From NCBI GenBank assembly GCA_039028635.1, contig JBCCHV010000053.1:1-48538 (forward strand): a DNA stretch of 48,538 bases. The letters run 5' to 3'. Position numbers and translations under genes: made by a program. The DNA is from Acidobacteriota bacterium (GTDB lineage Bacteria; Acidobacteriota; Thermoanaerobaculia; Multivoradales; JBCCEF01). Shown one piece after another: positions 605-20,614 of this stretch (its first letter is position 1; each line of letters opens with the position of its first letter). A model generated the notes under the pieces. The model was not told where the DNA came from, made no database searches, and was given only the letters and a program-made list of their open reading frames with translations.

Positions 605-1459
605 CTAGAAAACGACGTTCTCGCACTCGTAGGAGATCTCGCAGAGAACCCCCGGCGGGCAGGGCTCGCAGCCCGGCGGGTAGAGGCAGTGCCGGTGACC
701 GCACTCCGCATAGTCGCAGTGGCAGTCGGAGCCTTCGATGAAGTTTCCGTTGTCGTCGACGCTCCAGCCGGTGACGAAGCCGTCGGTGCCGTGGACCCAG
801 GTGTCGGGCTGGCGATCAGCGTTGGTGTCGACCATCACCGCGGCCGGGGCCTGGATTCCGCCGCTGCCGGCCTTGGTGCTCCAGGCGGCGTTGGGTGCGG
901 GGGCGAAGGCGAGGTCGCGGACGAGCTCGCGGGTGCCCTTTTCGCGGGCGTCGACGGGGGTGAAGATGAGGCGCACGCGGACGGCGATTTCGGCGAGGAA
1001 AAGACCGCCATCATCGTTGGTGCGGATGATCTCCATTTGGGTGATCGGCTGCTCGCCTTCGAGGACGGTGCGGACGCTGTAGGTTCCGCAGTCGGTCTTG
1101 ATCAGGTCGAGACCCTCGAACTCCATGGCGATGACCTGGACGCGAGTGCTGGCATGACCGCTGCCGTTGAAGATGGCGTCATCGAGGCGCCGCACGATGG
1201 TGTCTGTGCTGCCGAGGGCGCGGACCGGATTGGTCGCCAGGGGCACGCCCTTGAAGCCGATGGAGCCACGGAAGGCTTCGCCGCCGCTGCAGAAGAAGCC
1301 GGCCGGGATCGGCTCGAGCAGGAAGTCGGCGCGGGTGGAGCCGTTGTTGGTGGTTTCCCACAGGTCCGGTCCGGCGGCGATGAAGTCGTTGGCGGCGAAA
1401 GCAGGGACTGCGATCAACAGGGCGGCGAGGGTCAGGGTCCAGCAGCACTTCTTCAGCAT
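605..1459 (-). CDS. secreted array protein, paralogue 1 of 7 (unknown function)
   Basis: A 284-aa protein with a signal peptide (residues 1-22, cleavage after AFA). The mature part begins ANDFIAAGPDLWETT, a block shared by all seven paralogues. Residues 211-219 (DTNADRQPD) fit a DxDxDxxxD calcium loop with Asn at the second ligand position. Residues 245-258 form a Cys/His cluster (DCHCDYAECGHRHC), followed by a tail with CEPCPP and two more Cys. I recognise no named family. The start is supported by AGGAGG five bases upstream. It has its own promoter (1607-1635) and terminator. The exported, disulphide- or metal-rich character is visible; the function is not. Confidence 0.8.
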   Translation of the reverse strand: MLKKCCWTLTLAALLIAVPAFAANDFIAAGPDLWETTNNGSTRADFLLEPIPAGFFCSGGEAFRGSIGFKGVPLATNPVRALGSTDTIVRRLDDAIFNGSGHASTRVQVIAMEFEGLDLIKTDCGTYSVRTVLEGEQPITQMEIIRTNDDGGLFLAEIAVRVRLIFTPVDAREKGTRELVRDLAFAPAPNAAWSTKAGSGGIQAPAAVMVDTNADRQPDTWVHGTDGFVTGWSVDDNGNFIEGSDCHCDYAECGHRHCLYPPGCEPCPPGVLCEISYECENVVF

Positions 1460-1606
1460 GAAACCTCCTGGAGTGATGAAACGACTCGAGGGATTCGACG
1501 GAAAACTGCAGCCGTTCTCGTCACCCGGCAGGGCGCGACATCTTCTCGTCGCCGTCAGCCCGGGGCGCGAAGGAAGCAGCCATCCAATTTTTGTGTACCG
1601 GAAGAG

Positions 1607-1635
1607 ATAGTAATAAGTACTTATTATAATGTCAA
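1607..1635 (-). promoter_or_regulatory. sigma70-type promoter with palindromic spacer, for array gene 1
   Basis: On the minus strand TTGACA (1635-1630) is followed after 17 bases by TACTAT (1612-1607), close to the vegetative consensus. The spacer overlaps a perfect 16-bp palindrome, TAATAAGTACTTATTA (1611-1626), well placed for a repressor or activator. The same arrangement recurs at 6490-6518. The rest of the 1460-1865 gap is a leader of about 140 bases, also similar to the one before 6347, and the terminator of the next unit. Confidence 0.7.
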
Positions 1636-1804
1636 TATGCGCAACTAATCCCTTGTCCTTGTGGGTAACTGTGTTTTAGGCGTGGGTTGATTGAGGTCGA
1701 GTCGCGGAATTCGGCTGCCGTGGGCGAGCTCGCCACGGGTCGTCTTCGGTTGCCGGACCGCTGGACCGCCGGCAGTTTTCCTCGGGATAGGGACCACAGA
1801 AATG

Positions 1805-1832
1805 AAAAAGGGGGAGCTCGGAAGCTCCCCCT
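1805..1832 (-). terminator. rho-independent terminator of the array operon (genes 2-6)
   Basis: A perfect 10-bp stem AGGGGGAGCT / AGCTCCCCCT with a 4-base loop (1809-1832), followed on the minus strand by five T. It lies 34 bases past the stop of the gene at 1866 and is nearly identical to the terminator at 541-566, so gene and terminator were duplicated together. Confidence 0.85.
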
Positions 1833-1865
1833 CTCGTCACGAGATTGATCGCGTGACGGTGTTGA

Positions 1866-2723
1866 CTAGAAGAGGGTAGGGTCTTCGCAGTCGATCGGGA
1901 TCGGACAGATTTCACCCGGCGGGCAAGGCTCGCAGCCCGGCGGATAAAGGCAGTGGCGGTGACCGCACTGGCTGTAGTCGCAGTGGCAGTCGGAGCCCTC
2001 GACGAGGTTGCCGTTGCCGTCGACGCTCCAGCCGGTGACGAAGCCATCGGTGCCATAGATCCAGGTGTCGGGCTGGCGGTCGGCGTCGGTGTCGACCATC
2101 ACGGCGGACGGCGTTTCGACACCGCCGCTGCCGGCCTTGCTGCTCCAGCCGGCATTGGGGGCGGGGGCGAAGACGAGGTCGCGGACGAGCTCGCGGGTGC
2201 CCTTTTCACGTGCCTCGATGGGGGTGAAGATCAGCCGAACGCGGACGGCGATTTCGGCGAGGAAGAGGCCGCCGTCGTCGCTGGTACGGATGATCTCCAT
2301 CTCGGTGATGGGCTGCTCACCTTCGAGAACGGTGCGCACGCTGTAGGTGCCGCAGTCGGTCTTGACCAGATCGAGGCCCTCGAACTCCATAGCGATGACC
2401 TGCACGCGAGTGCTGCCATGGCCGCTACCGTTGAGGACGGCGTCATCGAGGCGCTGCACGATGGTGTCGGTGCTGCCGAGAATTCGGTTGGGGTGCGTTG
2501 CCAGGGGCACGCCCTTGAAGCCGATGGCGCCGCGGAAGGCCTCGCCGCCGTTGCAGAAGAATCCTGCCGGGATGGGCTCGAGCAGGAAGTCGGCGCGGGT
2601 GGAGCCGTTGCTGGTAGTTTCCCACAGGTCCGGTCCAGCGGCGATGAAGTCGTTGGCGGCGAAAGTGGGGGCCGCCAGCAACAGCGCGGCGAGGGTCAGG
2701 GTCCAAAAGCACTTTTTGATCAT
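1866..2723 (-). CDS. secreted array protein, paralogue 2 of 7
   Basis: A 285-aa close paralogue of the neighbouring array proteins: signal peptide 1-22 (cleavage after TFA), conserved block ANDFIAAGPDLWETT, calcium-loop-like DTDADRQPD near residue 211, and C-terminal DCHCDYSQCGHRHC followed by the tail YPPGCEPCPPG and two further Cys. GGAGAT precedes the ATG. It is the last gene of a five-gene unit that starts at 6347, and lies 44 bases after the gene at 2768-3625. Function unknown. Confidence 0.8.
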   Translation of the reverse strand: MIKKCFWTLTLAALLLAAPTFAANDFIAAGPDLWETTSNGSTRADFLLEPIPAGFFCNGGEAFRGAIGFKGVPLATHPNRILGSTDTIVQRLDDAVLNGSGHGSTRVQVIAMEFEGLDLVKTDCGTYSVRTVLEGEQPITEMEIIRTSDDGGLFLAEIAVRVRLIFTPIEAREKGTRELVRDLVFAPAPNAGWSSKAGSGGVETPSAVMVDTDADRQPDTWIYGTDGFVTGWSVDGNGNLVEGSDCHCDYSQCGHRHCLYPPGCEPCPPGEICPIPIDCEDPTLF

Positions 2724-2767
2724 AGAGATCTCCAGGATTCAAGTGTCGGTTGGAAGTACTTGCAGGC

Positions 2768-3625
2768 TTAGAGCATCGGTTCTAGTGCGCAGAAGCTTGG
2801 ACAGTCGACGCCCGCTGTGCACCCTCTCCAGCACTCGGACGATGGCTGCAGGCAATGCTTGTGACCGCATTCCGAGTAGGTACAGTGGCAGTCGGAGCCT
2901 TCGACGAGGTTGCCGTTGTCGTCGGGGGACCAGCCGGTGACGAAGCCGTCGGTGCCATAAACCCAGGTGTCCGGCTGGCGGTCGGCATCGGTGTCGACCA
3001 TCACCGCAGTCGGAGTCTCGACGCCGCCGTGGCCTGCCTTGGTGCTCCAGCCGGCGTTGGGAGCGGGGGCGAAGGCGAGCTCGCGCACGAGGGAGCGAGC
3101 GCCCTTTTCACGCGCTTCGATGGGGGTGAAGATGAGGCGCACGCGGACGGCGATTTCGGCGAGGAAAATGCCGCCATCGTCGCTGGTGCGGATGATCTCC
3201 ATGTTGGTGATCGGCTGTTCACCCTCGAGCACGGTGCGGACGCTGTAGGTGCCGCAGTCGGTCTTGACCAGGTCGAGTCCCTCGAATTCCATGGCGATGA
3301 CCTGCACCCGGGTGCTGCCGTGGCCGCTGTCGTTGAGGACGGCGTCATCGAGGCGCTGCACGATGGTGTCGGTGCTGCCGAGGATGTGGTTGGGGTGAGT
3401 CGCCAGGGGCACGCCCTTGAAGCCGATGGCGCCGCGGAAGGCTTCGCCCCCGTTGCAGAAGAAGCCAGCCGGAATCGGCTCGAGCAGGAAGTCGGCGCGG
3501 GTGGAGCCGTTGCTGGTGGTTTCCCACAGGTCCGGTCCAGCGGCGATGAAGTCGTTGGCGGCGAAAGTGGGGGCTGCCAGCAGCAGGGCGGCGAGGGTCA
3601 GGGTCCAGCAACACTTCTTCAACAT
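2768..3625 (-). CDS. secreted array protein, paralogue 3 of 7
   Basis: 285 aa, with signal peptide, the shared ANDFIAAGPDLW block and the DTDADRQPD loop. The C-terminus differs from the other copies: the metal-type cluster reads DCHCTYSECGHKHC, and the tail replaces CEPCPP with a separate Cys-rich sequence (SSECWRGCTAGVDC, then FC). The body is otherwise almost identical to paralogue 2, which points to recent duplication with a diversified tail. An AGGAG lies upstream of the ATG. Function unknown. Confidence 0.8.
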   Translation of the reverse strand: MLKKCCWTLTLAALLLAAPTFAANDFIAAGPDLWETTSNGSTRADFLLEPIPAGFFCNGGEAFRGAIGFKGVPLATHPNHILGSTDTIVQRLDDAVLNDSGHGSTRVQVIAMEFEGLDLVKTDCGTYSVRTVLEGEQPITNMEIIRTSDDGGIFLAEIAVRVRLIFTPIEAREKGARSLVRELAFAPAPNAGWSTKAGHGGVETPTAVMVDTDADRQPDTWVYGTDGFVTGWSPDDNGNLVEGSDCHCTYSECGHKHCLQPSSECWRGCTAGVDCPSFCALEPML

Positions 3626-3684
3626 GAAAGTCTCCTGGAGTGAAAGAAGAGCTCAAGGCCGCCGAGGGCGTCTCGGCGACAGAG

Positions 3685-3715
3685 CCCTGGACCTCGCCCT
3701 CAGCGAGGTCCAGGG
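3685..3715 (-). terminator. 12-bp hairpin between array genes 4 and 3
   Basis: CCCTGGACCTCG (3685-3696) pairs perfectly with CGAGGTCCAGGG (3704-3715) across a 7-base loop, 34 bases after the stop of the gene at 3749. There is no clear T run on the minus strand, so it may be a weak or partial terminator, or an mRNA-stabilising stem inside the operon. Confidence 0.5.
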
Positions 3716-3748
3716 GATGGTGGCGATAGGGCTGCGGATCGATCCGCT

Positions 3749-4552
3749 CTAGAGGGCGGGAGCGCCGAGACAGTGCCGGTGGCCGCACTCCAGGTAGTCG
3801 CAATGACAGTCGATGGTGTCGTAAGGAGCCTCGAAGCTGCCTTCGCCTTCGGTGCTCCAACCGGCGACGAAGTCGGGCGTACCTCCGATCCAGGTGTCAG
3901 GGTTGCGATCAGCGTCGGTGTCGACCATTACCGCGGCCGGTGCCTCGATCCCGCCTTCGCCTGCTTTGGTGCTCCAGGCAGCGTTGGGGGCGGGGGCAAA
4001 GGCGAGCTCACGGACCAGCTCGCGGGTGCCCTTCTCGCGGGCCTCGACGGGGGTGAAGATGAGACGCACGCGCACCGCGATCTCGGCCAAGAAGAGGCCG
4101 CCGTGATCATGGGTGCGCAGGATCTCCATCTCGGTGATCGGCTGCTCGCCCTCGAGGACGGTATGCACGCGATAGGTACCGCAGTCGGTCTTGACAAGGT
4201 CTAGGCCCTCGAACTCCATGGCGATCACCTGGACGCGGGTGCTGGCGTGGCCGCTACCGTTGAAGACGGCGTCATCGAGGCGCTGCACGATGGTGTCTGT
4301 GGTGCCGAGGGCACCGGCCGGCCGCGTCGTGATCGGCACGCCCTTGAACTCGATGGAGCCCCGGTAGGCTTCACCGCCGTTGCAGAAGTAGCCGGCCGGG
4401 ATGGGCTCGAGCAGGAAGTCGGCACGGGTTGAGCCGTTGTCGGTGGTTTCCCACAGGTCCGGTCCGGCGGCGATGAAGTCGTTGGCGGCGAAAGTGGGTG
4501 CTGCGAGCAGCAGGGCGGCGAGGGTCAGGGTCCAACAGCACTTCTTGGTCAT
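3749..4552 (-). CDS. secreted array protein, paralogue 4 of 7 (short tail)
   Basis: 267 aa from the ATG at 4552, chosen because a GGAGG lies seven bases upstream and the signal peptide (MTKKCCWTLTLAALLLAAP) then begins at the N-terminus; an in-frame ATG 30 bases earlier lacks this. It shares the ANDFIAAGPDLWETT block and a DTDADRNPD loop, and reads GGTPDFVAGW where most copies have GTDGFVTGW. The protein stops just after the Cys/His cluster (DCHCDYLECGHRHC) with a tail of only five residues. Function unknown. Confidence 0.8.
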   Translation of the reverse strand: MTKKCCWTLTLAALLLAAPTFAANDFIAAGPDLWETTDNGSTRADFLLEPIPAGYFCNGGEAYRGSIEFKGVPITTRPAGALGTTDTIVQRLDDAVFNGSGHASTRVQVIAMEFEGLDLVKTDCGTYRVHTVLEGEQPITEMEILRTHDHGGLFLAEIAVRVRLIFTPVEAREKGTRELVRELAFAPAPNAAWSTKAGEGGIEAPAAVMVDTDADRNPDTWIGGTPDFVAGWSTEGEGSFEAPYDTIDCHCDYLECGHRHCLGAPAL

Positions 4553-4597
4553 GGGGTGCCTCCAGGGTTGAGCGATAGGCATTGTGAGTCTGGGTCC

Positions 4598-4615
4598 GGG
4601 AGCCCGAAGGCTCCC
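4598..4615 (-). terminator. short hairpin between array genes 5 and 4
   Basis: GGGAGCC / GGCTCCC 7-bp stem with a CGAA loop, 27 bases after the stop of the gene at 4643. No T run follows on the minus strand. Probably a weak terminator or processing stem. Confidence 0.4.
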
Positions 4616-4642
4616 CTCGGAGTACCGGATTCCCGCAGGCTG

Positions 4643-5488
4643 CTAGCGCAACTCACACTCGATGGTGATCGGGCAGAACTGGTTCGGCGGGCAGGGCTCG
4701 CAGCCCGGCGGATAGAGGCAGTGCTGGTGGCCGCACTGGGCGTAGTCGCAGTGACAGTCTGAGCTCGCATAGGCCGTGCCGTTGTCGCCGACTTTCCATC
4801 CCGTGACGAAGCCATCGGTGCCGTGGACCCAGGTGTCCGGCTGGCGATCGGCATCGGTGTCGACCATGACGGCCGCGGGCGCTTCGATGCCACCGCGGCC
4901 TGCCTTGGTGCTCCAGCCGGCGTTGGGGGCTGGGGCGAAGGCGAGGTCACGGACCAGCGTGCGGATGCCCTTTTCACGCGCCTCGACGGGGGTGAAGATC
5001 AGGCGCACGCGGACGCCGATTTCGGCGAAGAAAAGGCCGCCGTCGTCACTGTTGCGGATGATCTCCATGTTGGTGATCGGCTGCTCGCCCTCGAGGACGG
5101 TGCGCACGCTGTAGGTGCCACAGTCGGTCTTGACGAGATCGAGGCCCTCGAACTCCATGGCGATGACCTGGACGCGAGTGCTGGCGTGGCCGCTGCCGTT
5201 GAAGACGGCGTCATCGAGGCGCTGCACGATGGTGTCGGTGCTGCCGAGGGCGCCGGCCGGATGCGTTGCCAGGGGCACGCCCTTGAAGCCGATGGTGCCG
5301 CGGAAGGCTTCACCTCCGTTGCAGAAGAAACCAGTCGGGATGGGCTCGAGGATGAAGTCGGCACGGGTGGTGCCGTTACTGGTGGTCTGCCACAGGTCCG
5401 GTCCGGCGGCGATGAAGTCGTTGGCGGCGAAGGTCGGAATCGCCAAGAGGGTAGTCAGTGCGAGAATCGAGAGAATTTTCTTGTTCAT
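4643..5488 (-). CDS. secreted array protein, paralogue 5 of 7
   Basis: 281 aa from the ATG at 5488 (AGGAGAG six bases upstream; the longer frame to 5524 would overlap the upstream gene and bury the signal peptide). The signal sequence (MNKKILSILALTTLLAIPTFA) differs from the other copies, which share a KKCCWTLTLAALL type, while the mature part is conserved: ANDFIAAGPDLW, DTDADRQPD, DCHCDYAQCGHQHC and the CEPCPP tail. Nineteen bases separate it from the gene at 5508-6347. Function unknown. Confidence 0.8.
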   Translation of the reverse strand: MNKKILSILALTTLLAIPTFAANDFIAAGPDLWQTTSNGTTRADFILEPIPTGFFCNGGEAFRGTIGFKGVPLATHPAGALGSTDTIVQRLDDAVFNGSGHASTRVQVIAMEFEGLDLVKTDCGTYSVRTVLEGEQPITNMEIIRNSDDGGLFFAEIGVRVRLIFTPVEAREKGIRTLVRDLAFAPAPNAGWSTKAGRGGIEAPAAVMVDTDADRQPDTWVHGTDGFVTGWKVGDNGTAYASSDCHCDYAQCGHQHCLYPPGCEPCPPNQFCPITIECELR

Positions 5489-5507
5489 GTTGCTCTCCTG
5501 AATCTGT

Positions 5508-6347
5508 CTAGAGCGCGCAGTCAACGGGGCAGAAGATCAGATCGTCTTCGGTGCAAGGGCACGGGTCTGGCGGCGAAAGGCAGTGGCGGTGGCCGCACTC
5601 GAGGTAGTCGCAGTGGCAGTCAGTGCGCTCGAGGGTGCTGACGCCGTCCGAGCTCCAGCCGGTGACAAAGCCGTCGGTGCCGTAGATCCAGGTGTCGGGC
5701 TGGCGGTCGGCGTCGGTGTCGACCATCACCGCGGAAGGCGTCTCGATACCGCCGGCGCCGGGCTTGCTGGCCCAGGCGGCGTTGGGGGCGGGGGCGAACT
5801 TGAGATCGCGCACCAAGGTGCGGGTGCCCTTCTCGCGGGTATTGACGGGAGTGAAGATGAGGCGCACGCGGACGGCGATCTCGGCGAGGAAAATGCCGCC
5901 GTTGTCGTCGGTCCGGAGGATCTCCATCTCGGTGATCGGTTGCTCGCCTTCGAGGACCGTGCGAACGCTGTAGCTACCGCAATCGGTCTTGATGAGGTCG
6001 CTGCCCTCGAACTCCATGGCGATGACCTGGACGCGGGTGCGGGCCAGGTTGCTGCCGTTGAAGACGGCGTCGTCGAGACGCTGGACGATGGTGTCGGTGG
6101 TGCCGAGAGCAACCGCCGGCTGAGTGGCGATCGGCACACCTCGGAAGGCGATGACGTCATTGAAGGCGGCGCCGCCGGCGCAGAAGAAGCCCGCGGGAAT
6201 GGGCTCGAGGAGGAAATCGGCGCGGGTGGCACCGCCGTCGGCGGTCTCCCACAGGTCCGGGCCGGCGGGGATGATGTCGTTGATGGCGAAGAGCGGTGTG
6301 GTGAGAAGAGCGGCGAATGCGAGGGTGCAGCAAAACTTCTTGAACAT
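5508..6347 (-). CDS. secreted array protein, paralogue 6 of 7, first gene of the array operon
   Basis: 279 aa with a signal peptide (1-21) and a more diverged N-terminal block (INDIIPAGPDLWETA). It carries a DTDADRQPD loop and the DCHCDYLECGHRHC cluster, with a tail containing DPCPCTEDD and two more Cys. AGGAGG lies four bases before the ATG. The gene heads a unit of five closely spaced paralogues reading to 1866, driven by the promoter at 6490-6518. Function unknown. Confidence 0.8.
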   Translation of the reverse strand: MFKKFCCTLAFAALLTTPLFAINDIIPAGPDLWETADGGATRADFLLEPIPAGFFCAGGAAFNDVIAFRGVPIATQPAVALGTTDTIVQRLDDAVFNGSNLARTRVQVIAMEFEGSDLIKTDCGSYSVRTVLEGEQPITEMEILRTDDNGGIFLAEIAVRVRLIFTPVNTREKGTRTLVRDLKFAPAPNAAWASKPGAGGIETPSAVMVDTDADRQPDTWIYGTDGFVTGWSSDGVSTLERTDCHCDYLECGHRHCLSPPDPCPCTEDDLIFCPVDCAL

Positions 6348-7928: not shown

Positions 7929-8450
7929 CTAGAGCTCGCCGGGTTCGACAGCCGGCAGGTCGAGCCGCGCTGCGATGTCGTGGCCAACGATCTGGCCACG
8001 CACGACGTCGCGAACGATGCCCTCGGAGTCGATCAGCAGGGTGTGGGGAATGGCGAGGCCGCCGAGGCGGGTGAAGGTTTCCTGGTCACCGATCAGAACC
8101 GGGTAATCGATGCTGCGCTCGGCGACGAAGGGTCGCACCACCTCGGCGCCGCCTTCATCGAGGGCCACGCTGATCAGGCGCAGGCGCGGATCGGCGTCGA
8201 GCTCGCGCAGCAGCGGGATCTCTTTGAGGCAGGGCTGACACCAGGTGGCCCAGAAGGTCAACACCGTCGGTTGGCCCACCAGCTCGGTGGAACCCAGCGG
8301 GGTGCCTTCGAGGCTGGGCAGCGAAAAAGCCGGCAGGGGGCGACCGACCTCCACTCCAGAGCCTGCGCCGCCGCAGGCCAGTTGCAGGGCGATGACGACC
8401 AGCAAGGCGGGGAGTCCGGCGGCGGATCGGCGATGGGACTTTCGCATCAT
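7929..8450 (-). CDS. TlpA-like thioredoxin-fold lipoprotein
   Basis: 173 aa. The N-terminus is a lipoprotein signal (lipobox LQLAC, Cys about residue 26), so it is predicted to be anchored on the periplasmic side of a membrane. The rest is a TlpA/ResA-type AhpC-TSA thioredoxin fold with the redox motif WCQPC, preceded by LTFWAT, and the cis-Pro region IPHTLLIDSEG. The family reduces periplasmic disulphides or haem-protein cysteines. The ATG at 8450 overlaps the stop of the acyltransferase fusion (ATGA) and has AAGGA six bases upstream. It is the last gene of the operon starting at 15438; the specific partner is unknown. Confidence 0.85.
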   Translation of the reverse strand: MMRKSHRRSAAGLPALLVVIALQLACGGAGSGVEVGRPLPAFSLPSLEGTPLGSTELVGQPTVLTFWATWCQPCLKEIPLLRELDADPRLRLISVALDEGGAEVVRPFVAERSIDYPVLIGDQETFTRLGGLAIPHTLLIDSEGIVRDVVRGQIVGHDIAARLDLPAVEPGEL

Positions 8451-10189
8451 GTCGTTTCCTTGTGATCCGTTGAGGCGAAGGCGGAGCCGTGGAAGATCCC
8501 GGGGCGACGCGCCAGAAGCGCGCCGAGGGTCTCGGCCATGGTGCTTCGGACGCGGGCGTCGAGGGCGCGGTAGACGGCCGGGTCGTCGGCCGCATCGGCG
8601 GCTCCGTACTGGCGCGGGTCGATCGGCGGGAGTACCTCGATATGCCATTTGCTGGGCAAGGGCACCAGCGAGAGGGTTGGAGTGATCGGGAGCGTCGGCC
8701 AATCGCTGAGGCGCTTCCACCAATCCCAATCGAGCTTCGCCAGGATGGGAAAGATCTCGGCGCTGCCAACCACCACGAAGGGGATGATCGGAGCTCCATG
8801 GCGCAGCGCCAGGCGGGCGTAGTCGGGCCGGAAGCGGGTCAATCGATGGCATTGTCGGTAGGGCAGGAAGGCGCCCCGGATGCCCTCCGGAAAAACCGCC
8901 AGGAGCTTGCCCTGGGAGAGCACCCAATCGCCGTTGCGTCGGCAGGCCGGGATGCCGCCGCAGCGACTGATGTAAGGCGCCAGATGGGGAAGTTTGACCA
9001 GCGCTGGATGGATCAGGAAGCGCGGGTAGCGGCCGAGATCTCGCGCCAGCCGATGCAGCATCATCACTCCGTCCCACGGCTGGTGGCCGCGGTGGTTGGC
9101 GACCAGCACCGCCGGTCCGTGGCGCGGCACGTGTTCGAGGCCACGCCACTCGATACGCCACCAACGGTCGTGGAGGAACCGAAACAGGGTGCGGCCGAGA
9201 CGATCGATATAGGGACGGTCGAGACTGAAGGGGTCGAATTCGAGCTCGGCGACGGGTCTTTCGAGGCTGGCCGGGGGCAGCGGCTGTGGGCGATGGGAAG
9301 GGCTGGTCATGATGCGACGGCGAGCCGCGTCGCTGACCGTGAAGGGGTAGCGCAGCCCTTCGACGGCGTCGGGTTGGTCGCCGCGCCAGCGCAGCAGCCA
9401 GCGCAGCACAGTGGTGGGTATCGGGAGCCGGTGAACGCCTTCGCGGCGCAGGGCCCGATGCAGTGGGACCACCCCTGGCGGGGCGACGTGCCAGGTTCCG
9501 GGGGCCAGCTCGCCGCGGACGGCGGCGGCGATGGCGGCGGCCAGCTCCGCGCACGAAAGCCACTGGATCGGTGGGTCGTAGCCGGCTGGAGTCGCCGCCA
9601 CCTTGCCGGCCAGGAGACGGCCGAAGACATCACGTCCCCCGGTCGCGGCGAGGGGCGTCGGTCGCAGCACCACCGGTGCCGTGGCGGTTGCGGTCGCGAT
9701 CTCCGTCACCTGCGCCTCGAGCCGGCGCCAGCGCCGGGCGACCCGGTCCTCGGGCGGTCGACGGGGCAGCTCGTCCTCGCCGACGTGGCCCAGGTGACGG
9801 TGGCTGGGAGCATGGATGCGGGCGCTCGAGATCAGGATCAGGCTTCGCCTGTCGCAGCCGCGGTCGGAGTCGCCGACCCAGTCACCGAGAGCCGCCACCA
9901 GGCCTCGGTCCGAAGCCTGGAGTGCCTCACCCAGGGTGTGTCGGGTGCGGCGCTCGGCGAGTACGACGAGGGTTTCGACCTCTGCCGCCAGAGGCTTCTC
10001 CGGAAGGGGGTGCTCGAGTCCCGCGAGCGGCTCGACGGGAACTCCGTCGAGGGCCGCGGACAGGGCCCCGCCGACGGCCGCTGCGAGGCCCGCTTCGGTG
10101 GGCCAATGCCAGAGGTGAAGGCGGGTCGGTGGGTCCGGTAGGGGCGGACGGGGCGACTCGCCGGCGTCGAGGCCGGCCGGTGGCGTCAC
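8447..10189 (-). CDS. degenerate SDR/epimerase-like domain fused to a glycerolipid acyltransferase
   Basis: 580 aa from a GTG that overlaps the preceding TGA (GTGA). About residues 1-300 resemble the second half of an extended short-chain dehydrogenase/epimerase (VVLRPTPLAATGG, then a sensor-like IQWLSCAELAAAI), but no N-terminal GxxGxxG is visible, so NAD binding is doubtful. The C-terminal 270 residues are a PlsC/LPLAT-type acyltransferase: NHRGHQPWD gives an H-x6-D spacing as in MGAT-like members, and FPEGIRG matches the acyl-acceptor motif. It probably transfers an acyl chain to a glycerolipid or alcohol at the membrane. The substrate is not predictable; the operon also encodes HMG-CoA reductase and a desaturase-like enzyme. 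Confidence 0.75.
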   Translation of the reverse strand: MTPPAGLDAGESPRPPLPDPPTRLHLWHWPTEAGLAAAVGGALSAALDGVPVEPLAGLEHPLPEKPLAAEVETLVVLAERRTRHTLGEALQASDRGLVAALGDWVGDSDRGCDRRSLILISSARIHAPSHRHLGHVGEDELPRRPPEDRVARRWRRLEAQVTEIATATATAPVVLRPTPLAATGGRDVFGRLLAGKVAATPAGYDPPIQWLSCAELAAAIAAAVRGELAPGTWHVAPPGVVPLHRALRREGVHRLPIPTTVLRWLLRWRGDQPDAVEGLRYPFTVSDAARRRIMTSPSHRPQPLPPASLERPVAELEFDPFSLDRPYIDRLGRTLFRFLHDRWWRIEWRGLEHVPRHGPAVLVANHRGHQPWDGVMMLHRLARDLGRYPRFLIHPALVKLPHLAPYISRCGGIPACRRNGDWVLSQGKLLAVFPEGIRGAFLPYRQCHRLTRFRPDYARLALRHGAPIIPFVVVGSAEIFPILAKLDWDWWKRLSDWPTLPITPTLSLVPLPSKWHIEVLPPIDPRQYGAADAADDPAVYRALDARVRSTMAETLGALLARRPGIFHGSAFASTDHKETT

Positions 10190-12624
10190 GGATTCCCCGT
10201 GCCGTCGGCTGCCACCAGGCTCGAGCCCTGGCCTTCGATGATCCGCAGCCGGTGACGGGCCGGCAGCTCGGTGAAGGTCTCGACCAGACCGCTCGGCCAA
10301 TGCACCGTCAGGCGATCCGCCTGAGGCTCTTCACCGAGACCGAAGCTCAGGCGCCGATGATGCTGTGAGGCGTAGCTCGATCCGGCGACCACTAGCTGAG
10401 TCTGCGGTTCGCCGGCGATCTCCAGGGTGACCCGTGCCCCGATAGCGGAACGGTTGCTGGCGGTGCCCTCGAGCTCGACGCTCAACCAGTGGTGGCGCGC
10501 GCCGACATCGTTGCGCAGCAGGGAGGGGCGGGCCCTTTCGGGGTCGCCGCTGTCGCCGGGATTGTTGTTGATCGCCAGGTCGAGATCGCCGTCGTTGTCG
10601 AAATCGGCGATCGCCAGGCCGCGGGCGTCGAGCCCTTGATCGGCGCCCAGCGCCATGGCGACGTCGACATAGCGCGGAACGCCGTGCTCGTCCGGCCCTT
10701 CGTTGCGCAGCAGGTTGTTGGTCTCGTAACCATTCCACGACATCGCGCCGCGAAACTCATCACTGTAGAAGGTGCCCTTTTTGTACTCGTCGATGTGCGC
10801 GACCGCGCCCAAGATGTAGGGCAGTCAAAGATCGTCGTGGGTTTCCCCACTGATCCAGCCGTTGTTGGCGTAGAGGTCCTGGCGGCCGTCGTTGTCGAAG
10901 TCGAGGAAGGCCGATCCCCAGTACCAGCCGAAGGGGTTGGCGCCGGCGATCTCCGCCCGGTCCTCGAAGCGGCCGCCATCGTTGAGGAGCAGCGAGTTGC
11001 CCTTCACCATGGCGTCGCCGTAGTCCCGCCAGTCGGCGCCGGTATAACCGTAGATTTCGCGGTAGAGGTCGAAGTCGTCCCCCAAAGTCCCCTGGCGAAG
11101 ACTGTTGAGCAGGTAGCGGTAGAGGGTCGTGGATTGGCCGTACCAGCGCTGCCCCGAGTGGACGTTCGAAACATAGAGGTCGAGATCGCCGTCGTTGTCC
11201 GCGTCGCCCCAGGAGCTACTCATGCCGAAGCCGAAGTCGATGGCGCCGCTCTCGGCGCTGACGTCGGCGAAGCGCACGTTGCCGGACTCGTCCGGGCCGT
11301 CGTTGCGCAGCAGAGCGTTGCGGCCGAAGTCGTTGGCGACATAGAGGTCGACATCGCCGTCTTCGTCGTAGTCCGCCCAGGCGGTGCCGAGGGTGAGGCC
11401 ACCATCGCTCACGCCGGCGCTCGCGGTGACCTCCGTGAAGCGGAAGTCGCCGTCGTTGCGCAGTAGCGAGTTGCCCTGGCCGTTGCGGGTGTAGAAGAGC
11501 GTCGTCGGCAGGTCGACGCGAGGATCGAGATAGCGACCCAGGTAGAGATCGAGATCGCCGTCGCCATCGTAGTCGGCGGCGCTGGCGACGGTGACGAAGG
11601 TCGCGATCGCTGCCAGGTTGGCGCTCAGGTCGGTGAACTGGACGATGCCGGCGTCGTCCGGTCCGTCGTTGCGAAACAGCAGGTTCTGGTCCATGAACCG
11701 ACCGAGGAAGAGGTCGTCGTCGCCATCTTCGTCGAGGTCGACGAAAAGGGCGACGTTGGTGCTGGCGGCCTCCACCGGAAGACCGCTGGCGGCGGTGATG
11801 TCGGTGAAGCGCAACTCGCCGTCCTCGCCAGGGCCGAGGTTGCGATAGAGGCGGGGCTCGATGCCGTCGCCGAAGTAGAGGTCCACCCAGCCATCGCCGT
11901 CGGCGTCGGCGGCGGAAACGCCGGCCGAGCCATAGGGCAGGATCTCGAAGGCCTTCGGAGCCCACTCGGCGGTGGCGAAGCGCGGATTGATGCGCCCCCG
12001 ATGGTCGAGCCCTGCCGCCGCCGCGATATCGACGAAGCCATCGCCCCGGCCGAGGGTGGTGGTGCCTTCGAGAAGCTCCTGGCGAGTGATCTGCCAGCCG
12101 GCGGTGGGCTGCTCCGAGCGTTCGAGGTGAAGGCGCAGGGAGGCTTGGCTCTCGAAGCGGTGGCCGTCGGCCTGCTCGCCCCGAAGCCACAGGACGGCGG
12201 CCACAACGGCGCGATCTTCGCTGCTCTCGATCACCCGGCCGAGCTTTGCCTTGGCGACTTCGAGGCTGTTCACACCCTCGAGGAGGCGGGCCATCTGCGC
12301 CTCGACGGCGGCCTTGTCGGTCACCGCTCCGACCTCCTCGCGCTGCCAGCGAAAGACCTCGACGCCGTCCCGTTCGGAGGTTCGCTGCTGGCTCCAGCGG
12401 GCGCCTTCGGGGTTGTCGTAGTGGTCCGCGTAGCATCCCGCCACGCGTGCCGGATCCTGCTCCCGTAGGCCGGCACCGAGCTCCGTCAGCAGCTTGATCG
12501 CCGCCGTGCCGGTGGTCGCCAGGCGGTCCGCCTGGCTTTCGATGCGGTGGTTGGCGCCGGCGAGCAGGGCCAGCAGGAGAAGCGGTGGCAACAGCCACCA
12601 CAGCAGTTTTCTTCGTCGGCTCAT
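10186..12624 (-). CDS. FG-GAP/VCBS-ASPIC repeat protein with in-frame TGA at codon 600 (possible selenoprotein)
   Basis: One reading frame of 813 codons from the ATG at 12624 (AAGGAGAG upstream; N-terminal membrane segment LLWWLLPPLLLLALL) to the stop at 10186, interrupted by a TGA at 10827-10825. Before the TGA: an N-terminal domain of about 190 residues, then FG-GAP/VCBS repeats with DxDxDGxxDL calcium-type loops. After it, the same frame continues into another such repeat (ADFDNDGDLDLAINNN) and an ASPIC/UnbV C-terminal domain (SNRSAIGARVTLEI). Such proteins form secreted beta-propellers. Either the TGA is recoded, or the gene is a nonsense pseudogene, or translation restarts at the TTG at 10812. 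It overlaps the next gene by GTGA. Confidence 0.75.
10797..10827 (-). promoter_or_regulatory. in-frame TGA followed by a SECIS-like hairpin
   Basis: The TGA (10827-10825) is followed 16 bases later by GCGC-GGTC-GCGC (10808-10797), a 4-bp stem closing a GGTC loop. Bacterial SECIS elements place a short hairpin with a G-rich loop about 16-37 nt after the UGA, and E. coli fdhF has a GGUC apical loop at similar distance. A competing GCCC/GGGC stem (inside 10822-10807) weakens the case. The coding frame continues through this sequence. Confidence 0.4.
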
Positions 12625-12661: not shown

Positions 12662-14188
12662 TCACGTATTTCGAGGCGTCCGAAGGGGGTTGGATGTTTC
12701 TTGGGCGATGCGTTCGGCAACTCGCTGGGCGGAGACGATGACCGGCGTGATTCCGCCGCCGGGGCGCACCCAGTGGCCCACCCGGTAGAGGCCTGGGAGC
12801 GGTCCAGCCAGCCCCGGACGCGCCGCGCCGAGCTGGTCCGGTGCCATCTCCCAGCCGAGCATGGCGCCGGCGGTGTTGCGGGTGAAGCGCCAGGAGGTGT
12901 GGGCCGAGGCGGCGCTGCGCTCGACCACCTTCTCCTCGATGCCCGGAATCACCCGCGCCAGGTGGTCGAACATCTCGCCTTCGACCGCCGCCTTGTGCTG
13001 CGGCCAGCGGCCTCGCCGGTCGAGGCTTTCGTAGTCGATCTCCTGGACCTTCTGCAGAATCACGATCTGGCCTCCCGGCGGTGCCAGGGACGGGTCGTAG
13101 AGGGTGGGCGCGAAGATCTTGCAGATCAAGCCGTCGCGGCCCACCCGGTCCGGGTCCCAGTGGCGCCAGTAGTAGCCCTGGGCGCGCTCGAGAACGTCGT
13201 CCGGCACGTCGCGCAGGCCGATGTGGACCAGGAAGCAGGGGAAGCTCGGCCGGCGCTGCCCGGGGCGGTCGTCGAGGGAGGAGTCGCAAATCTCTGCCGG
13301 CAGCAGATCGCGACCGGTGTGGTGCAGGTCGGCGTTCGACACCACCACTTCCGTTGCCACCCGATAGTGGCCTTTGAGCTTGCCGCGGTCGGTGGCCAGG
13401 CGCACGCCGGAGACGCGGCCATCGCTGGCTTCGATGCCGTCGGCGGCGGTGCTCATCAGGATCTCCCCGCCGGCTTCTTCGAAGACCCGGGCGAGCTCGT
13501 CGGCGAAGTCCTGGGAGCTGCCCCGCGGGTAGTAGTTGCCGAGGAAGTAGGACAGGCGCAGCATCGAGTCGAAGACAAAGGAGGTCCGTGCCGGCGGCGA
13601 GCCCCAGTGAGGACAGTCGGCGGTCAACAACAGGCGCAGCTTGGGATCGTCGATGTGGCGGTCGAGAACGTCCGTCACGCTGAGCGGCGCAAGGTCGCCG
13701 AGGAGGCGTTCCGGGCGATTGCGGAAATACACCATCAGGCCGCGGGCATAGGCCTGCTCGGCCTGGGCGAAGAAGCCGTCGAGGGCCTTCTTCTGGTGCG
13801 GGAACTGGTCGTCGAGGCGCTGGCGGTAGGTGGCGAAATCGGCCGGCACTTCGAAGCGACTGCCGTCCGGGAAGTGGAAGGTGTCCACCGGATCCATTTG
13901 CACCCACTCGGTCTCGACGCCGAGGCCGGCGAGGAGCTTGCCGGTGAGGGTGGTCGGGTTGCCGAGCAGGGGATAGAAGTGCGACGCCGCGTCGAAGGTG
14001 TAGCCAGCGCGGCGGAAGGTGCTGCAATAGCCACCGACCATGTAGTGCTGCTCGACCAGCAGGACCGAGAGCCCTTGACGGACGAGCAGGTTGGCGCTGA
14101 CCAGGCCGCCGATGCCGGCGCCGATCACCACCGCGTCGTAGTGGCGTCGCGGGCCGGTCTGGCGCAGGCCGCGAAACCGCCGCTTCAC
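12662..14188 (-). CDS. phytoene-desaturase-like FAD/NAD(P)-dependent oxidoreductase
   Basis: 508 aa from a GTG that overlaps the HMG-CoA reductase stop (GTGA). The N-terminal dinucleotide-binding motif is IGAGIGGLVSANLL, followed by an acidic residue at the end of the next strand (LLVEQHYMVGGY). The C-terminal GLYRVGHWVRPGGGITPVI matches the FAD-closing motif of CrtI/retinol-saturase-type amine-oxidase-fold enzymes. The family desaturates, saturates or isomerises polyprenoid chains. Placement directly after HMG-CoA reductase suggests an isoprenoid substrate, but no phytoene synthase is nearby, so the exact reaction is open. Confidence 0.8.
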   Translation of the reverse strand: MKRRFRGLRQTGPRRHYDAVVIGAGIGGLVSANLLVRQGLSVLLVEQHYMVGGYCSTFRRAGYTFDAASHFYPLLGNPTTLTGKLLAGLGVETEWVQMDPVDTFHFPDGSRFEVPADFATYRQRLDDQFPHQKKALDGFFAQAEQAYARGLMVYFRNRPERLLGDLAPLSVTDVLDRHIDDPKLRLLLTADCPHWGSPPARTSFVFDSMLRLSYFLGNYYPRGSSQDFADELARVFEEAGGEILMSTAADGIEASDGRVSGVRLATDRGKLKGHYRVATEVVVSNADLHHTGRDLLPAEICDSSLDDRPGQRRPSFPCFLVHIGLRDVPDDVLERAQGYYWRHWDPDRVGRDGLICKIFAPTLYDPSLAPPGGQIVILQKVQEIDYESLDRRGRWPQHKAAVEGEMFDHLARVIPGIEEKVVERSAASAHTSWRFTRNTAGAMLGWEMAPDQLGAARPGLAGPLPGLYRVGHWVRPGGGITPVIVSAQRVAERIAQETSNPLRTPRNT

Positions 14189-15438
14189 GAGTCCTGGTCC
14201 CGGCTCTCCGGCGGGCGATTGCGGCCGTAGGCTTCGTGGGCCTGGACGAACTCGCCGCTGGCGATCGCGCCGGCCATCGACAGATCGCCGGCGAGAACGG
14301 TGGCGGCGGTGATCTCGGCCAGCTTGCGGGCCCCGCCGGTGCCGGCACAGCCGAGCATCTCGAGGCACTCGCGCGCGGTGCCGCTGCCGGTGCCGCCACC
14401 GACGGTGCCGAGGGTGAGCGAAGCGAGCGTCGCGCTGGCCTCGAGATCGCCCTCCGGAGTGGCCTCGAGCTGGGTCAGCCCGAGGCAGGAGTTGGCGACA
14501 TTGGCGACATCCTGGCCGCAGGCGATGAACAGCGCCGTGAGGCCGTTGGCGTAGTGTCCGCAGTAGCCCAGGGAGCCGCTCGTCAGGTGTCCGACGACGG
14601 TGTCGCGCCACAGCGAGGCCATCGCCTCGGCGGTGGTGCCGAGCACCGCCCGCACCACTCGGCGGGGCAGGCGGGCGCCGGCGACGACCTTCTTGCCCTT
14701 GCCGCCGCGCAGCAGCGATCCGGCGGGTCGTTTCTCGGCGCTGTAGCCGCTGAACACCAGATAGCGGTCGCCGCCGACGTGCTGCTGCAGATAACGGCAG
14801 GCGGCGTCGGTGGCGCGTACGATCATGTTCATGCCGTGGGCGTCGCCGGTCGAGTAGACGAAGTCGACGATCACCTGGCGGCCCGCCGGCAGGGCGGTGA
14901 CGTCGAGCAGCTTGCCGTGTTGGGTGGTGGCTTCGGCGGCTCGGCGAATCGCCGGCAGATGTTGCTCCAGCCGGCCGGCGAAGTCGTGGGCTGCGGCGAC
15001 ATCCGCGAAGTGGAAGATCGGCGACACGCGGTTGCTGTCTCGGTAGATGCGAGCTTGTGCGCCGCCGGAGCGGGTGAGAGCGGTCATGCCGCGCTCGTAG
15101 GAACGCACCAGGGCGCCTTCGGTGGTCGCCAGCGGCACGTAGAAGATGCCGCGGGCGTGCTCCCCCTCGACCTGCAGCGGTCCGGCGATGCCGAGCGGTA
15201 CCTGGGCGACTCCCACCGGATTCTCGATGTTGCCGCGCATCGCCTGCGAGTCGACCGAGAATCGACCGACGTGCTCGAGGCGGGCACCGGTCTGCTCTTC
15301 CACCCAGCGGCGGCGCTCGGCCATCTGGTCGCGGCCATATCCCTGGTCGGCGAAACGCGGGATGAGCTGACGCGAGCGCGGCGTGGAGCGCTTGGCGTGG
15401 GACTTCTCCGGGGCCTGGTCGGTGGGGTCGTCGGTCAC
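14185..15438 (-). CDS. class I 3-hydroxy-3-methylglutaryl-CoA reductase
   Basis: 417 aa. It reduces HMG-CoA to mevalonate with NADPH, the committed step of the mevalonate pathway. All four catalytic residues of the family are visible: Glu in TTEGALV, Lys in SAEKRPAG, Asp in GQDVANV, and the C-terminal His in FVQAHEAYGRN, which fits class I rather than the usual bacterial class II. ENPVG, DAHGMNM and GTVGGGTG are also present. The GTG at 15438 is chosen because a promoter (TTCACA-16-TATCAT) ends six bases before it, which would give a leaderless mRNA; no proper ribosome-binding site is seen. It heads the operon running to 7929. Confidence 0.85.
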   Translation of the reverse strand: MTDDPTDQAPEKSHAKRSTPRSRQLIPRFADQGYGRDQMAERRRWVEEQTGARLEHVGRFSVDSQAMRGNIENPVGVAQVPLGIAGPLQVEGEHARGIFYVPLATTEGALVRSYERGMTALTRSGGAQARIYRDSNRVSPIFHFADVAAAHDFAGRLEQHLPAIRRAAEATTQHGKLLDVTALPAGRQVIVDFVYSTGDAHGMNMIVRATDAACRYLQQHVGGDRYLVFSGYSAEKRPAGSLLRGGKGKKVVAGARLPRRVVRAVLGTTAEAMASLWRDTVVGHLTSGSLGYCGHYANGLTALFIACGQDVANVANSCLGLTQLEATPEGDLEASATLASLTLGTVGGGTGSGTARECLEMLGCAGTGGARKLAEITAATVLAGDLSMAGAIASGEFVQAHEAYGRNRPPESRDQDS

Positions 15439-15444
15439 CTTTCG

Positions 15445-15472
15445 ATGATAGCAATCGCAGTGAGTATGTGAA
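15445..15472 (-). promoter_or_regulatory. promoter of HMG-CoA reductase operon, possibly leaderless
   Basis: Minus strand TTCACA (15472-15467), 16-base spacer, TATCAT (15450-15445), then six bases to the GTG at 15438. Transcription would begin at or next to the start codon. Confidence 0.45.
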
Positions 15473-15516
15473 TCTCTGCCTCGCGTCGCTGCGGTGACGA
15501 TCTCGGGCGCCTTTGG

Positions 15517-15546
15517 TTGACACTGTGGAAAGTCCTTTGCTAGCCT
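15517..15546 (+). promoter_or_regulatory. promoter of the tRNA-Val / rpmI operon
   Basis: TTGACA (15517-15522), 18-base spacer, TAGCCT (15541-15546), about 50 bases before the first tRNA and divergent from the HMG-CoA reductase promoter. Confidence 0.5.
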
Positions 15547-15595
15547 CGCCAACCTTCGACGGCACGGATAACTGTGTCCGTCGGGCGGTGAATCA

Positions 15596-15672
15596 AGGCC
15601 CGTAGCTCAGCTGGTTAGAGCGCTACGTTGACATCGTAGAGGTCAGCGGTTCGAGTCCGCTCGGGCCTACCA
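15596..15672 (+). tRNA. tRNA-Val (anticodon GAC)
   Basis: 77 nt including an encoded CCA. The acceptor AGGCCCG pairs with CGGGCCT. The D arm is GCTC/GAGC, the anticodon stem CTACG/CGTAG with loop TTGACAT (anticodon GAC), and the T arm AGCGG-TTCGAGT-CCGCT. All stems are complete. It reads GUC and GUU codons. Confidence 0.95.
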
Positions 15673-15696: not shown

Positions 15697-15773
15697 AGGC
15701 GCTTAGCTCAGCTGGTTAGAGCGCTACCTTCACACGGTAGAGGTCAGCGGTTCGAGTCCGCTAGCGCCTACCA
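15697..15773 (+). tRNA. tRNA-Val (anticodon CAC)
   Basis: 77 nt including CCA. The acceptor AGGCGCT pairs with AGCGCCT, and the anticodon stem is CTACC/GGTAG with loop TTCACAC (anticodon CAC, reading GUG). The D arm, variable loop and T arm are identical to those of the tRNA-Val(GAC) 24 bases upstream, so the pair looks like a local duplication that split codon duties. Confidence 0.95.
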
Positions 15774-20411: not shown

Positions 20412-20614
20412 TGGAATGGATGTGCATCCCCTGTGCAGTTGGTGATGGGTCAAGCAATCGTAGAACCAACACCAATACTTCGGGAGTCTTCACCTGCGGG
20501 CTTGTGCAAGCCCTGCGTCTGTAGGGAGCTAATGGCTCGCAGCGCGGACACCCACCTGGCGCGTTTCAGGTTCTAAACGCGGCAGCCCCACGGCTTCGCG
20601 GGGGATGCCTTCCG
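20412..20614 (+). ncRNA. ssrS: probable 6S RNA (RNA polymerase regulator)
   Basis: The sequence between zapA and rny can form one long closed rod. Its ends pair perfectly (GCATCCCC at 20424-20431 with GGGGATGC at 20601-20608, about 185 nt apart, the usual 6S length), with flanking GGA/TCC pairs. A GC-rich terminal stem-loop (CCTGCGGGCTTGTGCAAGCCC near 20500-20515) lies inside. 6S RNA mimics an open promoter and binds sigma70 RNA polymerase, and its gene is commonly adjacent to zapA. Boundaries are estimates, and I could not score the fold against the family model. Confidence 0.7.

Follow-up and report, generated by a model that had tools for sequence, protein, structure and literature searches.

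The 48,538-nucleotide stretch of DNA analysed here (the window), from an Acidobacteriota bacterium, contains a gene for an FG-GAP/ASPIC protein with a TGA codon inside its reading frame, and it raises the question of whether that codon ends translation or is decoded as selenocysteine (Sec). The gene occupies positions 10186 to 12624 on the minus strand. Its frame of 813 codons starts with an ATG at 12624, ends with a TGA at 10188-10186, and has a single internal stop, the TGA at codon 600 (10827-10825, minus strand); the product, counted with Sec600, has 812 residues. Translation confirmed that the frame runs uninterrupted through the TGA, as an initial annotation of this DNA had claimed.

Domain content of the window protein

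Pfam assigned seven FG-GAP_3 stretches and an UnbV_ASPIC domain to the protein. The FG-GAP (beta-propeller) part on the 5' side of the Sec codon extends over approximately 10825 to 12057 on the minus strand (PF13517 and PF01839, best stretch only), the UnbV_ASPIC domain covers residues 727 to 793 (10246 to 10446, minus strand; PF07593, E = 2.8e-19), and one further FG-GAP repeat motif was recognized in the translation C-terminal to Sec. FG-GAP repeats together with a PF07593 match above the gathering score place the protein among the CRTAC1-like UnbV/ASPIC FG-GAP proteins, and they bear out the earlier description of FG-GAP repeats before the TGA and a repeat plus ASPIC domain after it. The N-terminal stretch (12562 to 12624, minus strand) is hydrophobic and, judged from the translation alone, is probably a signal anchor.

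Apart from Sec, the protein has one cysteine, Cys64, which is present in 7 of the 11 Sec rows of a 13-row alignment; no Cys lies close to Sec600. Neither a CxxU or UxxC motif nor a thioredoxin fold was found around Sec, Pfam detected no thioredoxin-like domain in the protein, and the chain ends after the ASPIC domain. Among the matches listed for the window's own genome there were 31 FG-GAP matches to the query, and among these listed matches, the Sec gene aside, a TGA fell within the match only at C37:60546-60995.

Conservation of the TGA codon among relatives

An order-level search covered 59 genomes, the window's own included, and 57 of these gave some match. Near-full-length orthologues were recovered as 12 rows from 11 genomes (56 to 100% identity), each with exactly one in-frame TGA, and in all 12 this TGA aligned with window codon 600 in the context D-L-U-L-P-Y. 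The UGA was conserved in frame with coding conservation on both flanks, and in the 13-row alignment the conservation was unbroken across it. This is the outcome that the initial annotation had named as support for recoding, and Cys homologues exist as well (L123 and L124, described below). More distant paralogues in the same order comprised both TGA forms and stop-free forms. In the order-level search, the match rows G048:C167, G044:C609, G015:C88 and G022:C50 carried two in-frame TGA codons or a TAG, and a TAG fell within the match in three rows.

Codons 601 to 800 were under purifying selection similar to that on codons 201 to 599. In all nine comparisons dN was lower than dS past the TGA, with dN of 0.20 to 0.42 and dS of 0.52 to 1.55 (for example, 0.20 versus 0.52).

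A phylum-level search with a 151-residue segment gave a match in at least 176 of 396 genomes, and at least 61 distinct TGA segments were collected from the fetched part of these matches. TGA forms were grouped into subfamily A, which is the type found in the window (U-L-P-[YF]...A-V-A, plus L023 with U-A-A-F; 19 rows), and subfamily B (U-x-x-[FKL]-W-R-[QHR]-V; 40 rows, no two alike over 48 nt). Over 138 loci, all 63 distinct stop codons at the column in an A or B context were TGA, with no TAA or TAG. That the TGA is a true stop (through mutation, pseudogene formation or error) leaving a truncated protein of 599 residues or a split gene is exceedingly improbable, for although TGA is the ordinary stop here, ending 11 of the 12 window genes checked (the Sec gene included), its presence in every full-length orthologue excludes the nonsense mutation or sequencing error considered in the initial annotation, a plain stop would have been free to vary to TAA or TAG, purifying selection goes on past the codon, and truncation would remove the ASPIC domain. 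A reassigned genetic code was likewise rejected, on the same count of genes that end with TGA.

A hairpin downstream of the TGA

A bSECIS-type hairpin lies at 10797 to 10808 on the minus strand (stem GCGC at 10808-10805, loop GGTC at 10804-10801, stem GCGC at 10800-10797) and starts 16 bases 3' of the TGA; its position, stem and loop are as the initial annotation gave them. It stands shortly after the UGA and carries a G in its apical loop, the two features with which the rule for bacterial SECIS elements is concerned. The proposed likeness to the SelB-decoded SECIS of Escherichia coli fdhF also held, in that the hairpin follows directly on the UGA and has a GGUC loop. The fdhF loop starts 19 bases after the UGA, and the loops described here start close to this, at 21 bases in subfamily A and at 18 to 19 bases in subfamily B. 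Unlike elements of the fdhF type, the upper stem in subfamily A has just 4 bp and is located inside a conserved coding stretch.

Judged from the window alone, the hairpin would not convince: 28.5% of synonymous-codon shuffles of the window sequence scored at least as high. The minimum-free-energy fold of the window's 48 nt was a competing stem (z = -0.77), the folding z-scores of six single Sec sequences (-1.37 to +0.50) were uninformative, and for single A sequences a fraction of 0.06 to 0.44 of the synonymous-codon shuffles scored at least as high as the hairpin. Across subfamily A, the loop started at +21 after the TGA in 19 of 19 rows, all four pairs of the stem were intact in every row (100% of cells), RNAalifold selected the GGTC-loop stem, and the hairpin score was 12.1 versus a mean of 4.3 for synonymous-codon shuffles. 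One pair had changed from C-G to U-A in five rows, giving five cells altered on both sides, a value that none of 500 shuffles reached when relatedness among the sequences was ignored, as it was in all the stem shuffles.

The competing GCCC/GGGC stem had been seen in the initial annotation as lowering confidence in the hairpin. This concern stood insofar as the competing stem is the optimum when the window's sequence is folded singly, but the alignment favours the GGTC-loop hairpin, since the competing stem was paired in 89.5% of the subfamily A cells (versus 100%) and one of its pairs was broken in 8 of the 19 rows. It was rejected as the functional hairpin because it is less well kept. Its covariation in subfamily A was matched by 1 of 500 shuffles, and it is possible that it forms a second fold there.

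In subfamily B, the loop started at +18 or +19 after the TGA in 40 of 41 sequences, the remaining one (L080) being scored with another hairpin at the site. The B stem has 6 bp in a single register, with 92.9% of cells paired and 25 cells altered on both sides. Its covariation was 0.310 versus 0.116 in shuffles (0 of 500 as high), slid partners gave a covariation of at most 0.100, and the best slid version paired 70.4% of cells. RNAalifold predicted the inner four pairs unprompted, the hairpin score was 16.9 versus a mean of 3.2 for synonymous-codon shuffles, and for single B sequences a fraction of 0.007 to 0.145 of such shuffles was at least as good. Two further counts were often matched by shuffles in both subfamilies, since many bases are fixed by the encoded protein: the number of pairs with two-sided changes (one pair in A, with 418 of 500 shuffles as high; two pairs in B, with 107 of 500) and the number of further pair types (500 of 500 in A; 221 of 500 in B).

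The stem was also compared between forms with and without Sec. All 40 Sec rows of subfamily B keep at least four of the six pairs, and 31 keep all six. The 11 non-Sec B homologues, a count that leaves out P, L and T pattern matches because their context marks non-homologous sites, keep 5 pairs in the Ser form, 5 and 6 in the Asp forms, 3 in the Gln form, 3 and 5 in the Glu forms, 2, 3 and 4 in the Asn forms, 1 in the Cys form and 3 in the Ala form. The stem had decayed to four pairs or fewer in seven of these; in the other four (L072, L082, L096 and L102; Ser, Asp or Glu forms), the five or six pairs that are kept may be SECIS remnants after loss of Sec. Nine A-type Glu forms (L019 to L022, L024 and L059 to L062) have one or two of the four A-register pairs, in a count that leaves out the chance TEIE matches L002, L012 and L017 (1, 3 and 1 of four pairs, respectively). 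Across these sequences, presence of the hairpin thus largely follows that of the TGA.

Selenocysteine machinery

In the window's genome, an assembly of 117 contigs that is 95% complete, there is a tRNA-Sec (73 bits), which ARAGORN confirmed with anticodon tca (UCA), as well as selB (367 bits) adjoining selA (535 bits), both above cut-off, and selD (279 bits), also above cut-off. The search for sel genes suggested along with the initial annotation was thus positive throughout. Within the order, selB was above cut-off in 54 of 59 members, and in G038, one of the 11 genomes with an A-type gene, two partial selB matches both fell under it. Since the tRNA-Sec model gave matches in all 14 control genomes (above cut-off in 5), we used 60 bits as our own dividing line, and by this measure a tRNA-Sec is present in 55 of the 59 order members, including all 11 A-type genomes.

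Of 57 further genomes, hand-chosen from the rows of the phylum search, a tRNA-Sec of at least 60 bits was found in 24 of 28 with a TGA form versus 15 of 29 with a listed stop-free match, where some of the 28 were classed from the match row alone, at least two of them (G221 and G360) also hold other forms, and the Sec column is shared by only part of the 29. The four TGA-form genomes without a tRNA-Sec at 60 bits are all drafts, one of which is rated 95% complete.

Residues that replace selenocysteine

Across 74 distinct segments, the column held U in 54, E in 9, N and C in 3 each, D in 2, and S, Q and A in 1 each. On a tree of these segments the distribution of U required 7 changes versus 17.8 with shuffled labels, and none of 500 shuffles was as low. 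This tree does not show the direction of change, since only 26 of its 71 inner branches have good support and its root serves for drawing only. Cys accounted for 3 of the 20 non-Sec rows, namely L123, L124 and L097, the last on a long branch. The first two were found when 84,980 species genomes were scanned with a single Cys-containing peptide pattern, which by design detects Cys homologues only. Of the eight stretches returned, two belong to true relatives that have Cys at this position: L123, found in a Phycisphaerales MAG, and L124, found in 'bacterium isolate Vin_7'. The initial annotation had held that residues other than Cys or Sec at this position would speak against recoding. Cys forms do exist, but so do E, D, N, Q, S and A forms, and the usual argument from Sec/Cys pairs is weakened accordingly. 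In two of the Glu forms, an earlier blade contains a vicinal Cys-Cys pair (residues 329-330 in L019 and 316-317 in L022) that was not seen in the Sec rows of the 13-row alignment.

The variety of residues at the column is one point in favor of readthrough with a near-cognate amino acid or of reinitiation at the TTG at 10812, which would produce a second polypeptide and in neither case involve selenocysteine; a 208-residue open reading frame from that TTG does exist. Conservation is continuous across the TGA, however, the SECIS-type hairpin covaries and largely tracks the TGA, and the full sel machinery and Cys homologues are present, leaving readthrough and reinitiation very improbable. Conservation of the TGA, the hairpin and the machinery together lend strong comparative support to the selenocysteine interpretation of the initial annotation, and TGA codon 600 is very probably decoded as selenocysteine. 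SelB and the Sec-tRNA(UCA) would read the codon under the direction of the GGUC-loop hairpin 16 bases downstream, and insertion of Sec would yield the full-length protein.

Gene neighbourhood

Three minus-strand genes adjoin the Sec gene. Immediately upstream is a CrtI-family FAD oxidoreductase (12662 to 14230, frame extent; PF01593, with TIGR02734 at 173 bits under its cut-off of 238), followed by an HMG-CoA reductase (14185 to 15552; PF00368, 357.6 bits). Downstream is an acyltransferase (PF01553) in the frame 8447 to 10300, the true start of which probably lies close to where the Sec gene ends. Neighbourhoods were compared at every other orthologous locus except G010 (10 of 11). The acyltransferase was found at 10 of the 10 loci, the CrtI-like gene at 8 and the HMG-CoA reductase at 7; one of the three loci without the reductase begins, at the edge of its contig, within the CrtI-like gene. 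At four of the 10 loci (L128, L129, L132 and L133), a second FG-GAP/ASPIC homologue stands in tandem with the Sec gene. These tandem homologues (read as L012, L015, L016 and L117) are all TGA forms with a hairpin, either GTGC-GGTC-GCAC or GCGC-GGTC-GCGC. From the neighbourhood only, we infer that the Sec gene is linked to lipids or isoprenoids.

Elsewhere in the window there is a run of open frames of similar lengths, about 280 amino acids, at 605 to 6347 on the minus strand. Pfam gave no match for 13 short open reading frames between 605 and 7662 (seven minus, six plus), among them the six minus-strand and five plus-strand ones tried from this region. The plus strand carries two tRNA genes (15596-15669 and 15697-15770) and a 6S RNA (20425-20608).

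Architecture and possible function of the protein

The nearest solved relative of the window protein was murine CRTAC1 (9etn), both by sequence (E = 7e-23) and by fold (Foldseek, E = 1.9e-21, TM 0.51/0.58). The protein shares with CRTAC1 and the ASPIC/UnbV FG-GAP proteins the combination of FG-GAP propeller and ASPIC domain; the profile alignments to CRTAC1, however, leave the Sec column uncovered, and no Sec form was found in the literature searched. A structure model had a mean pLDDT of 63.9 and a pTM of 0.70, and its residues 412 to 455, which include Sec (model residue 422), were below pLDDT 50, so no geometry was drawn from the model. Sequence families and the model together support a propeller fold with moderate confidence, with Sec placed by the model in a low-confidence loop that connects two strands in one of the late propeller blades. 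The protein is probably a membrane-anchored FG-GAP beta-propeller with an ASPIC domain, located outside the cytoplasm.

Three longer proteins of subfamily B were analysed at full length. Both L134 (Sec, 1,421 residues) and L123 (Cys, 1,333 residues) combine FG-GAP, ASPIC, AhpC-TSA/Redoxin and TPR parts, with the motif WASWCVPC in the redoxin part of L134 and WASWCPNC in that of L123. In L124 (Cys, 1,147 residues), Pfam gave no redoxin match, and that part of the protein contains no CxxC. The C-terminal AhpC-TSA/Redoxin part of L134, in the same chain as Sec, resembles the TlpA/ResA-like thioredoxin-fold proteins; the difference from these is that Sec is in the propeller part rather than in the thioredoxin domain, and that the window protein is without such a domain.

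By analogy with these sequences, the selenol might take part in redox chemistry outside the cytoplasm, exchanging electrons with a thioredoxin-like partner that would be fused in the longer subfamily and supplied in trans for the window protein. To this proposal we assign slightly less than an even chance. Replacement of Sec mostly by residues other than Cys would fit poorly with one indispensable redox step. The principal alternative shares the decoding by selenocysteine and differs in giving Sec a non-redox role, in which it would bind a metal or a substrate or would be a near-neutral substitution in a loop at the surface. The residues with which Sec alternates (E, D, N, Q, S, A) could bind metal or do nothing, and no cis Cys is common to every Sec row. 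In the 13-row alignment, His489 and His610 (window numbering) are present in 10 of the 11 Sec rows but absent from both Glu rows, a pattern that resembles a ligand set. The histidine pattern comes from few rows, however, and His610 is encoded just beyond the SECIS stem; moreover, Sec and its SECIS have long been retained across many families, a thioredoxin-like domain is fused in two of the three B proteins analysed at full length, and some relatives have Cys. A non-redox role is accordingly rather unlikely in our estimation. The redox proposal can be extended to a phylum-wide family in which Sec on an extracytoplasmic integrin-like propeller would pass electrons to and from a TlpA-like domain (part of the same chain in one subfamily), and in which the window's subfamily would act on an isoprenoid or lipid product of the mevalonate, CrtI-like and acyltransferase enzymes encoded next to it; this extension is tentative and, taken as a whole, doubtful.

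Relation to known selenoproteins and significance

The decoding machinery is the same as that of known prokaryotic selenoprotein families, and decoding of the gene itself would be canonical. A 2026 inventory lists 119 prokaryotic selenoprotein families or subfamilies (PMC13188914, Table 1), through which the families of Haft and co-authors are represented here, and its table has no FG-GAP, ASPIC or CRTAC1 entry. Within the portions of text available, these three terms were also absent from PMC13188914, PMC12013277 and PMC9312934. NCBIfam (June 2026, selenoprotein models included) gave no family for the window protein at E values up to 1. Searches of the literature for selenocysteine paired with UnbV or FG-GAP, a scope outside of which fall supplements (such as S9 Table of PMC4807772, on planctomycete selenoproteins) and GenBank annotations, found nothing, and the records retrieved for selenocysteine paired with CRTAC1 were papers on peroxiredoxin 6 only. 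As far as these sources extend, a selenocysteine in an ASPIC/UnbV protein was previously unknown, as the initial annotation had supposed, and the selenoprotein family appears to be unlisted so far.

According to the available text of the inventory, most characterised selenoproteins have a thioredoxin-like fold and a redox motif, and homology-based discovery of selenoproteins relies on Sec/Cys pairs (PMC13188914). Because Cys is rare at the column of the present family, searches based on such pairs could miss it, and gene callers would be expected to cut its proteins at the TGA. With this family, a beta-propeller joins the selenoproteins listed so far, and the ASPIC/UnbV proteins gain a chemical handle. 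The lineages that carry Glu, Asp, Asn, Gln, Ser or Ala at the column, some of them with SECIS-like remnants, amount to a natural experiment on keeping or losing Sec. If the proposed role is true, it would mean a selenium-dependent function for ASPIC/UnbV proteins, for which we found none described.
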